Shown in pieces: positions 52,093 through 54,707 of a stretch of DNA of 64,000 bases. The stretch is from NCBI RefSeq assembly GCF_041154745.1, contig NZ_AP031573.1:992001-1056000 (forward strand), written 5' to 3'. Made by a program: the position numbers and the translations under genes. How positions within the stretch are numbered: the first letter of the stretch is position 1; each line of letters starts with the position of its first letter. A model generated the notes under the pieces. That model was not told where the DNA came from and searched no databases. It worked only from the letters and a program-made list of their open reading frames with translations. Source of the DNA: Flavobacterium sp. CFS9 (GTDB taxonomy: Bacteria > Bacteroidota > Bacteroidia > Flavobacteriales > Flavobacteriaceae).

Positions 52093-52764
52093 TTAGAACT
52101 CAGCTTTTATTTTTTGTATTTCATCTGCATCTGCAATCTCTATACCACCTGTAATGGCAGAAGAGTGATAAAAAGTAGGCTGTAATTTTTCTTGTAGCAG
52201 TTTAATATTTGAAGATCGCAAACCGCCGCCGGGCATGATTACGATTCGGTCTCCCGCTAATTTCTGAATCAGTTCTAAATCCAAAATTCCTTCTTCAACA
52301 TTTTTTCCTCTTCCCGAAGTGAGTATCGTTTGAAAACCACATTCGATTACCTCTTCCAGCCCTTTTTCGATTGAATCAACCACATCAAAAGCACGATGAA
52401 AAGTACACGAAAGCGGACTGGCTAGTTTTACCAATTCCAAATTCTGTTCTTTGTTTACACTCCCATCCTGATTTAGAATTCCGAAAACAAAACCATCAAC
52501 TCCCAATTCTTTCAGTTGTTTTATGTCCTGTTTCATTTCTGTAAACTCTTCCCCCGTATAAACAAAATCACCGCCACGAGGTCTGATGATCACATGCATT
52601 TTTATGGTTAGTTTTTCCCGTACTCTTTTTGCTGTTTCTAAATTTGGTGTTGTCCCGCCAAGCAGCATATTGTCACATAATTCTATTCTGTCTGCACCGC
52701 TTTCCTGTGCAATTATTGCCGATTCGTAATTGAAACAGGCTATTTCCAGTTGATTTCTTTTCAT
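52093..52764 (-). CDS. cutC: CutC family protein
   Basis: The 223-aa TIM-barrel protein has the family motifs LEIACFNYESAIIAQESGADRIELCDN, GGTTPN, VIIRPRGGDFVYTGEE and FHRAFDVVDS. LTSGRGKNVEEGI and IVMPGGGLRSSN follow. CutC was linked to copper homeostasis, though that role is disputed. It is single, between symE and the repeat/nuclease island. No copper genes are nearby. Confidence 0.93.
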   Translation of the reverse strand: MKRNQLEIACFNYESAIIAQESGADRIELCDNMLLGGTTPNLETAKRVREKLTIKMHVIIRPRGGDFVYTGEEFTEMKQDIKQLKELGVDGFVFGILNQDGSVNKEQNLELVKLASPLSCTFHRAFDVVDSIEKGLEEVIECGFQTILTSGRGKNVEEGILDLELIQKLAGDRIVIMPGGGLRSSNIKLLQEKLQPTFYHSSAITGGIEIADADEIQKIKAEF

Positions 52765-52849: not shown

Positions 52850-53065
52850 CTTCGACTTCGCTCAGCCTGACAATACTTCAACTTCGCTTAGCAGGACAAT
52901 ACTTCGATTTCGCTGAGCCGGACATTGCCACTAAAACAAAACCCGAGTGTCACCCTGAGCGGAGTCGAAGGCTCACAAACCGTAAAGACTTCGACTTCGC
53001 TCAGTCGGATGGTGATCGCAAAAGTTACAAACATAGTCCTAGTGTCACCCTGAGCGGAGTCGAAG
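52850..53065. repeat. Left cluster of CTTCGACT/GAGCGGAGTCGAAG repeats (six units)
   Basis: Units of about 23 bp start at 52850, 52876, 52902 and 52989 (forward, CTTCGACTTCGCTCAGC type) and at 52948 and 53043 (reverse, CCCTGAGCGGAGTCGAAG). The first three are 26 bp apart. Forward and reverse copies can fold into long hairpins. The cluster ends 11 bp from the GIY-YIG stop codon. Confidence 0.9.
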
Positions 53066-53076
53066 GCTTATTTACA

Positions 53077-53400
53077 CTATGACTTCTTATTAACGTAATT
53101 CATATGACTCGTTTCATTTAAGCATTCAGCCAGCTGTTTCAAATCATCCCATTTATCATTTATAATGGCTTCTTTCTTTTTTCGACTCCAGCCTTTTACT
53201 TGTTTTTCGAATGAAATAGCCTGAAGAACATCATTAAAATCAGTATAAAAAACCAGCTCTAAAGGTCTTCTATTAAAAGTATAACAACTCTTATTTAAAG
53301 CCGATTGATGCTCGTTCAATCTTCTTTCAATATTATTTGCAACTCCGGTGTAATAACTATTATCAGAACATTTCAGGATATAAACATAATACAATTTCAT
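53077..53400 (-). CDS. Small GIY-YIG nuclease-family protein (UPF0213/YhbQ-like)
   Basis: The 107-aa protein starts MKLYYVYILKCSDNSYYTGVANNIERRLNEHQS. The two family Tyr positions (YVYIL and YYTGV) and Arg27 of RRLNEH are present. A Glu later (AISFEKQVKGWSRKKKEAI) fits the metal ligand. There is no DNA-specificity domain. The gene is bracketed by ten units of a palindrome-forming repeat, six left and four right, which suggests that gene and repeats belong together. Confidence 0.92.
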   Translation of the reverse strand: MKLYYVYILKCSDNSYYTGVANNIERRLNEHQSALNKSCYTFNRRPLELVFYTDFNDVLQAISFEKQVKGWSRKKKEAIINDKWDDLKQLAECLNETSHMNYVNKKS

Positions 53401-53487
53401 AATATATTTCTTTTAACTAAAAGTAAGAAAAATCTTTTAAAAAAAATATACTTATAATATAACTGATTTTCCTATTGGAACGGGGGG

Positions 53488-53631
53488 CTTCGACTCCGCT
53501 CAGCCGGACAATGCTTTGGATTTGCTTAACTGGACAGTGATCACAAAAGTTACAAACAAAACCCTAATGTCATCCTGAGCGGAGTGGAAGGCATATAAAC
53601 AGCAAAGGCTTCAACTTTGCTTAGCCGGACA
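53488..53631. repeat. Right cluster of CTTCGACT/GAGCGGAGTCGAAG repeats (four units)
   Basis: Forward units start at 53488, 53514 (degenerate) and 53609, and a reverse unit at 53568. The first two are again 26 bp apart. The inner text TGATCACAAAAGTTACAAAC, just before the reverse unit, is almost the same as at 53013-53031 in the left cluster. Confidence 0.88.
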
Positions 53632-53699: not shown

Positions 53700-54707
53700 T
53701 TACCATTTAATGATTGCACTTGCCCAGGTAAAACCGCTACCAAAAGCAGCCAGTACCACTGTATCTCCGGATTTGATTTTTCCTTGTTCCCAAGCTTCAG
53801 TCAGAGCAATCGGAATAGAGGCTGCTGTGGTATTTCCGTATTTCTGAATATTATTGTGTACCTGATCGTCACTCAATTTGAATTTGTTTTGAATGAATTG
53901 TGAAATTCTTAAATTCGCCTGATGAGGAATCAACATATCAATATCTGAAACCTGCAAACCATTTGCTTCTAATCCTTCATTGATTACTTCAGCAAAACGA
54001 ACCACGGCATTTTTAAATACAAACTGTCCATTCATATAAGGATAGTAACTCTCATCGTTCGGATCATTATCAGCTATAATATCGGTTACCCAACGTGCTC
54101 CCATTCCCGGTGCCTGCAAAGCCAATTCTTCGGCATGCTGTCCTTCTGAATGTAAATGTGTCGATAAGATTCCTTTGGTCAAATCTTCTTCACGGCTTAC
54201 AACTGCCGCTCCTGCTCCATCTCCAAAAATTACCGAAACTCCACGACCACGAGTAGTCATGTCTAGTCCTGTTGAATGTACTTCGGAACCAATAACAAGG
54301 ATGTTTTTGTACATTCCGGTTTTGATGTACTGATCGGCAACCGACAATGCATAAACAAAACCTGAACATTGATTTCTAACATCAAGTGCTCCTACAGTGC
54401 GTAATCCTAAATCACGCTGTACCAAAACTCCAGGTCCTGGAAAATAATAATCCGGACTTAAGGTAGCAAAAACTACAAAATCAATATCTTCTTTGGCTAC
54501 GCCAGAACGTTCTATAGCAATTTTAGCTGCTTTTACACCCATTGTAGTTGTGGTATCTTCTCCACGAATAATATGTCTACGCTCCTGAATTCCAGTTCTC
54601 TCCTGAATCCATTCATCATTGGTATCAATTATCTTAGACAAATCATCGTTGGTCACAACATTTGAAGGGACATAATATCCTAAGCCCGCTATTTTTGAAT
54701 GATACAT
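53700..54707 (-). CDS. fabH: 3-oxoacyl-ACP synthase III (KAS III)
   Basis: FabH starts fatty-acid synthesis by joining an acyl-CoA to malonyl-ACP. The triad is in place: Cys114 in RNQCSGF, His262 in PHQANLR and Asn292 in YGNTTAASIP. EWIQERTGIQERR and GDGAGAAVV are also standard. It is 335 aa. It stands alone, without plsX or acpP neighbours, so a branched-chain or secondary KAS III role is possible. Confidence 0.94.
   Translation of the reverse strand: MYHSKIAGLGYYVPSNVVTNDDLSKIIDTNDEWIQERTGIQERRHIIRGEDTTTTMGVKAAKIAIERSGVAKEDIDFVVFATLSPDYYFPGPGVLVQRDLGLRTVGALDVRNQCSGFVYALSVADQYIKTGMYKNILVIGSEVHSTGLDMTTRGRGVSVIFGDGAGAAVVSREEDLTKGILSTHLHSEGQHAEELALQAPGMGARWVTDIIADNDPNDESYYPYMNGQFVFKNAVVRFAEVINEGLEANGLQVSDIDMLIPHQANLRISQFIQNKFKLSDDQVHNNIQKYGNTTAASIPIALTEAWEQGKIKSGDTVVLAAFGSGFTWASAIIKW

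Follow-up and report, generated by a model that had tools for sequence, protein, structure and literature searches.

A small GIY-YIG nuclease gene of Flavobacterium sp. CFS9 is flanked on both sides by clusters of palindrome-forming repeats (Table 1), raising the question of whether the gene and the repeats belong together or merely lie side by side. A preliminary description, made from the window (the whole 64-kb stretch of DNA analysed), had counted six 23-bp units to the left and four to the right of a 107-aa gene; all ten are readable in the sequence, and the open reading frame between them is intact. The statement that nothing like the units occurs elsewhere stands for the window as far as three mismatches: the 16-bp core is found inside the block at 6 sites with at most 2 mismatches, 8 with 3 and 9 with 5, and outside the block in the same 64 kb at 0 sites with at most 3, 1 with 4 and 20 with 5. 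It does not extend to the 5.37-Mb genome, where the core is dispersed over 122 sites with at most 2 mismatches (a reversed-pattern control gave 1). The inner text described as nearly shared by the two clusters is indeed common to both, but as part of a longer stretch of 88 nt that is repeated 525 bp away with 77% identity. The spacer of the left arm has two occurrences in the 5.37-Mb genome (at most 3 mismatches), both at this locus, and the two brackets therefore look like copies of each other. The 525-bp array is absent from the output of Tandem Repeats Finder, for which the longest period allowed was 500.

Table 1. Features of the GIY-YIG locus, in positions of the window.
Feature	Positions	Strand	Basis or remark
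Flanking gene, presumably cutC-like	52093..52764	-	ORF; orthologous site
Repeat unit 1 (A family)	52850..52872	-	sequence reading; core scan
Repeat unit 2, 26 bp past unit 1	52876..52898	-	sequence reading; core scan
Repeat unit 3, 26 bp past unit 2	52902..52924	-	sequence reading; core scan
Repeat unit 4, TGTC-tagged	52948..52970	+	sequence reading; core scan
Repeat unit 5	52989..53011	-	sequence reading; core scan
Left bracket arm (repeat-spacer-repeat), resembles right arm	52989..53076	.	88 nt, 77% identity, offset 525 bp
Repeat unit 6	53043..53065	+	sequence reading; core scan
Small GIY-YIG nuclease gene, 107 aa	53077..53400	-	Pfam PF01541, E 3.6e-19
Repeat unit 7	53488..53510	-	sequence reading; core scan
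Repeat unit 8, worn (>5 mismatches in core)	53514..53536	-	sequence reading; missed by core scan
Right bracket arm, resembles left arm	53514..53601	.	88 nt, 77% identity to left arm
Repeat unit 9	53568..53590	+	sequence reading; core scan
Repeat unit 10	53609..53631	-	sequence reading; core scan
Flanking gene, presumably fabH-like	53700..54707	-	ORF; used to locate orthologous site

The genome contains 13 matches to PF01541. Nine of them are small genes, each with brackets, which differ in sequence. Repeat A brackets the window gene; repeat B (TGTCATTTCGAC...GGAGAAATC) brackets a tandem triplet (spacing 525 and 522 bp) and one further gene; for three genes the brackets are tRNA-Met and 3'-half copies of it, and for one they are tRNA-Ala and a 3'-half copy. 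When bracketing is expressed as a flank score (the best local alignment, on either strand, between the 350-bp flanks of a gene, with a score of at least 30 counted as bracketed), eight of the nine small genes reach 30 and the ninth scores 27, yet has its tRNA copy; among the four remaining PF01541 matches, the three that could be scored have 14-17. A RAYT transposase was considered as the mobiliser of repeat A and set aside, there being no core repeats (at most 2 mismatches) within 1.5 kb of the four Y1_Tnp (PF01797) matches of the genome; such an enzyme could still act in trans from a distance.

Flank scores were obtained for three sets of loci: a genus set of 107 small GIY-YIG genes at 86 loci, those of the same genome included (106 genes scored; 80 regions taken from the matches listed, leaving out contig-edge and lower-scoring matches); a phylum set drawn from 40 genomes of other genera, one locus apiece (44 genes, 43 scored; matches close to a contig end or within a long frame skipped); and a named-genome set of 80 loci matched with the A-E clade, the best 80 of 568 relatives (78 scored), from Flavobacterium, Chryseobacterium, Dyadobacter, Pedobacter and others. 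A score of at least 30 was reached by 66 of 106 genes in the genus set, compared with 10 of 360 control ORFs of the same loci and 7 of 104 isolated ORFs (at least 100 bp free on each side); by 22 of 43 in the phylum set, compared with 6 of 184 and 1 of 55; and by 34 of 78 in the named genomes (best 80 of 568 relatives), compared with 3 of 231 and 3 of 81, two of the three sets possibly overlapping in Flavobacterium. Counted by locus, the fractions bracketed are 52/85, 20/39 and 33/76 (the last among the best 80 of 568). When the upstream flank of one gene was paired with the downstream flank of another, scores of at least 30 arose in 37 of 596 pairs from the genus and 12 of 600 from the named genomes. 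The genes with scores below 30 number 40 of 106 in the genus set and 44 of 78 in the named genomes (best 80 of 568 relatives), where the four Nitrospirota/Nitrospinota loci score 13-15 and have D-like units in one flank; among these best 80 of 568, the named relatives closest to the window protein are from Flavobacterium. Tandem arrays of gene and repeat were found at several loci.

The preliminary description had cautioned that chance linkage must be tested, and the small GIY-YIG genes proved to be bracketed far above controls in all three sets. The link between gene and repeat is beyond chance, and is seen throughout the phylum as well as in named genomes; a chance linkage seen in one window only is rejected by the control ORFs and by the cross-locus pairing of flanks. 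A mere neighbourhood within repeat-rich intergenic DNA might be proposed on the grounds that such repeats are common in these genomes, but every control (ORFs, isolated ORFs, control windows and cross-locus flanks) is contrary to it, and its probability is negligible.

The window protein has one Pfam domain (GIY-YIG, residues 4-76 of 107), and no second Pfam domain, such as a separate DNA-binding domain or an HUH Y1 transposase, was detected in it; in free-standing homing endonucleases a NUMOD DNA-binding domain is usual, though not universal. Against the group I intron endonuclease family TIGR01453 (NCBIfam) it scores 16.6 bits, below the cut-off of 56.05. The catalytic residues Y, Y, G, R, H and E are kept in 95-98% of the 107 genus proteins. 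The closest PDB entries by sequence, 1zg2 (E 1.6e-13) and 1ywl (E 1.1e-8), both belong to UPF0213, in agreement with the earlier label of UPF0213-like, and an AlphaFold2 model (12 sequences, mean pLDDT 82) has as its nearest solved structures UPF0213 proteins and then Slx1 nucleases, the titles of whose structure entries name branched DNA. The protein thus shares its single domain and its nearest solved structures with UPF0213, YhbQ and YazA, whereas the loci of yhbQ (E. coli) and yazA (B. subtilis) are without such repeats on either side. The Slx1-like fold, and the annotation of the E. coli relative as the DNA damage response exodeoxyribonuclease YhbQ, would suit a host function in which nothing is mobile and a structure-specific repair nuclease that clears cruciforms is kept near palindromes in palindrome-rich genomes, but this is very unlikely in view of the patchy occupation of orthologous sites, the tandem arrays, the stop-bearing copies in relatives, and the unbracketed state of the two such genes examined, yhbQ and yazA.

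Bracket labels (six palindrome families, A-F, or a tRNA isotype) were mapped onto a tree of 101 proteins, 6 of the 107 being under 75 aa and left out; 27 of the 101 rows are unlabelled, and one (L157) is labelled tRNA though its tRNA is 1440 bp distant. Users of palindromes and users of tRNA genes are separated by 2 changes over 60 loci (shuffled minimum 13), and families A-F by 6 changes over 36 loci (shuffled minimum 16, mean 20.3), or again by 6 changes over 21 loci if one locus is kept per synteny group (minimum 8, mean 12.7, with 0 of 2000 shuffles as good). The tRNA isotypes require 7 changes over 24 loci (shuffled minimum 9); thinned by synteny to 10 rows, by a single-linkage grouping that merges too much, they are equalled by 418 of 2000 shuffles. 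Label A and label D each occur in two places on the tree. Clades of GIY-YIG proteins are paired in a type-specific manner with their own repeat families, or with a tRNA gene together with a duplicate of its 3' half. That the genes might simply hitch-hike, as one of many small foreign passengers landing in recombination-prone repeat clusters, would account for the plentiful repeats that have no gene, but it is improbable because other ORFs of the same loci are seldom bracketed (the 10 in 360 above), because the repeat family tracks the protein clade, and because one branch has tRNA genes in place of repeats.

Copies of a repeat away from the locus are commoner in genomes that possess the matching GIY-YIG type (p 0.0014 for A, 0.0064 for E and 0.0002 for D, ignoring kinship): 1, 32, 73, 88 and 100 copies of A, 0-21 of E and 8-18 of D where the matching gene is present, against medians of 1, 0 and 0 where it is not. 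Genomes with an E- or D-type gene from pattern listings alone (such as G007 and G056) were scored as gene-less, so this bias runs against the correlation. Repeat A is abundant in three genomes without a known A-type gene (103 copies in G057, 54 in G053 and 37 in G006), and therefore the gene is either unnecessary for standing copies or has been lost.

Several smaller observations concern the same families. Genome G017 has 53 copies of repeat E (GTCASTTCGAGTG), with a dense cluster on contig G017:C24, and no known E-type GIY-YIG gene. A-type genes with in-frame stops occur in relatives (G052:C85:254055 and G060:C20:113160). The C-termini of the GIY-YIG proteins of L122 and L116 have tails such as FDSAQPDSGA and SSTSSD, seemingly encoded by the downstream repeat.

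In the tRNA branch, a tRNA gene is found no further than 250 bp from 24 of 107 genus genes (2 of 360 controls) and 11 of 44 phylum genes (2 of 184 controls), and all 35 of these GIY-YIG genes (24 genus, 11 phylum) share the strand of the tRNA, which at L190 is the tRNA-like copy itself; no tRNA lies within 250 bp of any of the 83 A-E clade genes of the named genomes (best 80 of 568 relatives). A copy of the 3' half of the tRNA is present downstream of the gene in 19 of 23 loci examined and was not found, at the threshold used, in four (L139, L170, L176 and L184). The anticodon arm of many copies has become a plain palindrome (e.g. CCCGAT...ATCGGG, CCGCCGCGGCGG), the T-arm and acceptor being retained; L142 is an exception. 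Units of this branch also occur in tandem, five of them with a 350-bp period at L189. At the era/tRNA-Met site (best 30 of 59 matches), the gene is present in 5 of 30 genomes, including that of the window, and extra copies of the T-arm (at most 3 mismatches) in three, of which two carry the gene and one lacks it. The tRNA branch gives the impression of homing to a fixed site. Elsewhere, tRNA-Met-like copies with a palindrome replacing the anticodon arm (L176 4780-4839 and L187 4776-4835, gene-strand coordinates) sit between two tRNA-Met genes with no GIY-YIG gene between; they are possible non-autonomous forms.

Two known systems resemble this branch. Phage SegB, according to the portion of its description available (PMC13096335), is a stand-alone GIY-YIG enzyme tied to tRNA genes and associated with tandem segmental amplification via recombination. 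The genes described here share with it the stand-alone GIY-YIG enzyme, tRNA link and tandem amplification, and with free-standing homing endonucleases, of which SegB is an example, the intact catalytic residues and the occupied and empty allelic sites, but they are chromosomal, encode mostly about 80-130 aa, are bracketed by repeat or tRNA copies, and lie mostly at dispersed palindromes; the tRNA branch would, if the reading favoured below is true, be a chromosomal counterpart of SegB. In the fungal mitochondrial mORFs, an endonuclease ORF brings a copy of the 3' end of the host gene, three of four Glomus cases being LAGLIDADG and one GIY-YIG, as available sections of their description state (PMC3630166). 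The tRNA branch similarly carries a copy of the 3' part of its tRNA gene, whereas the mORFs are found at mitochondrial protein genes, and those sections describe no palindromic repeat partner (PMC3630166).

Orthologous sites were compared at two palindrome-bracketed loci. A survey of 30 fabH loci (best 30 of 57 matches) yielded 13 with cutC in reach: gene and repeats are both present in 4 of the 13 genomes (that of the window included), neither the gene nor repeat A in 9, and a GIY-YIG gene without repeats in none. The block is therefore present or missing as a whole, as the preliminary description had proposed to examine by comparing strains, and the four occupied sites may go back to a single old insertion. 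In Azospirillum lipoferum, sufB and sufC are separated by a REP pair, a GIY-YIG gene and a second REP pair; in three relatives, which have neither the GIY-YIG gene nor that REP there, sufB and sufC are near neighbours. The bracketing repeat is absent from all empty sites (0/9 at fabH-cutC, 0/3 at sufB-sufC), several of which carry another short palindrome, as judged by eye. Simple homing into a pre-existing cognate repeat was rejected for both REP sites, since without that repeat in the empty sites, homing into a resident cognate is not what fabH-cutC and sufB-sufC show.

The same empty sites may speak for true transposition, in which the GIY-YIG protein would, in the manner of a RAYT, cut out the repeats together with the block and insert them as one unit, without recourse to homologous repair at a target that shares homology: with no bracketing repeat at either site beforehand, block and repeats may have come together, and copies of the repeat elsewhere correlate with the matching enzyme. 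Transposition is nevertheless unlikely, because the tRNA branch resembles fixed-site homing and because GIY-YIG enzymes hydrolyse DNA and are not known to join strands.

The bracketing, the type-specific pairing, the presence or absence of whole blocks, the tandem arrays and the conserved catalytic residues are probably those of a selfish cassette, composed of a one-domain GIY-YIG endonuclease gene and copies of the structured DNA on which the enzyme would act, and spreading by cutting and recombinational repair. Each lineage of the enzyme would have its own cognate repeat, either a dispersed palindrome (REP) or a tRNA gene, the latter in a sister branch. The enzyme may recognise its palindrome most likely when extruded as a hairpin or cruciform, and then cut; recombinational repair would copy the repeat-gene-repeat block into the cut place, exchange between brackets could then yield tandem arrays, and gene-less stray repeats would be non-autonomous derivatives or relics. 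The idea of a REP-like element with a GIY-YIG partner, put forward in the preliminary description, gains support from the enrichment and the block presence/absence, as well as from the type-specific pairing and the CGTC-REP loci described below. The finding suggests a kind of selfish DNA that has attracted little notice, and if the cassette is real, many genes annotated merely as 'GIY-YIG nuclease family protein' would gain a likely role.

The cassette may best be read as a non-homologous analogue of the RAYT/REP system. In the REPtron, as sections of two papers describe it (PMC3733652, PMC8266576), a RAYT (TnpA-REP) gene is flanked by cognate GTAG-tagged, high-copy REPs with which the enzyme co-evolves, and the RAYT gene may be gone where REPs persist. 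Here too a nuclease gene is bracketed by cognate dispersed palindromic repeats, which persist in genomes without the matching enzyme gene; the difference is that RAYT is an HUH tyrosine enzyme and the window enzyme a GIY-YIG nuclease. If this is true, two unrelated enzyme chemistries converge on one REP life style.

A second class of REPs, tagged CGTC, is reported from five phyla, apparently without a dedicated transposase, in available parts of the 2013 survey that named it (PMC3733652), and includes dRS3 of Neisseria and RPE-4 and RPE-6 of Rickettsia; the string GIY is absent from the main text of that survey as far as it was available. Hairpins with the CGTC, TGTC or CCTC tag of the survey's description flank GIY-YIG genes here. 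Twenty loci were picked by hand from 82 match rows of a plasmid collection (some records being chromosome-sized and gene limits being partly set by hand), with preference for taxa expected to hold CGTC REPs and for relatives expected to be without them. Strict tagged REPs (tag CGTC, TGTC or CCTC and a perfect stem of 7 or more) flank the gene on both sides in 8 of the 20, which, the loci being hand-picked, is no rate, and on at least one side in 11; the figures for control windows are 0/180 and 7/180. The loci with REPs on both sides are from Azospirillum, Novosphingobium, Neisseria, Shinella, Rhizobium CIAT894, Sinorhizobium K101 (CCTC tags), Sphingobium and Neorhizobium, and those with REPs on one side from S. 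meliloti (where 81 nt left over from a second copy of the gene are found upstream, inside a duplicated unit), Aeromonas and R. tumorigenes. Nine of the 20 picked loci have strict tagged REPs on neither side; flank scores are nevertheless 88 in Planktothrix, 36 in Methylobacterium bullatum and 67 in M. aquaticum, and no repeat common to both flanks was found at E. coli yhbQ, B. subtilis yazA or in Cupriavidus. In the genus set, tagged hairpins (stem 5, C tail) are found on both sides of 19 of 106 genes and on any side of 36, against 0 and 33 of 1084 control windows. In the A-E clade set the same stem-5 hairpin is found on both sides of 2 of 78 genes, against 1 of 631 controls, and the window's repeat A has a TGTC tag and an imperfect stem, so that it is a putative CGTC REP. 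In Proteobacteria, too, GIY-YIG genes are paired with repeats, here tagged REPs of the CGTC kind.

We consider it reasonably likely that the dedicated enzymes which the CGTC/TGTC-tagged REP superfamily has seemed to lack are GIY-YIG endonucleases; the superfamily would then constitute a second REP class, chemically unrelated to and beside RAYT/GTAG, in Bacteroidota, Proteobacteria and perhaps Cyanobacteria, with enzyme and hairpin having co-diversified and a sister branch having specialised on tRNA genes. Seemingly enzyme-less repeats would thereby acquire a candidate enzyme, and a cognate nuclease family would make the origin of CGTC-tagged REPs testable with a protein of about 100 aa, one hairpin and one cleavage assay. 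The available portion of a survey of the GIY-YIG superfamily (PMC1564403) makes no mention of such repeats. No open-licence PMC paper was found to combine GIY-YIG with repetitive extragenic palindromic (preprints being outside the scope), or YhbQ or UPF0213 with GIY-YIG, and no link between GIY-YIG genes and repeats appeared in the wider open-licence PMC literature among the matches listed.

Two loci of other phyla have further features. On plasmid p1 of Planktothrix agardhii (L356, 3007-3291), a repeat-bracketed GIY-YIG gene has an MmeI gene (type IIL restriction enzyme) on one side and drmA, a DISARM gene, on the other. In Sphingomonas parapaucimobilis (L353), an alphaproteobacterial relative of the window gene with 46.6% identity has, upstream of 2995 only, an inverted pair with the core of the window repeat (CTGAGCGAAGTCGAAG).
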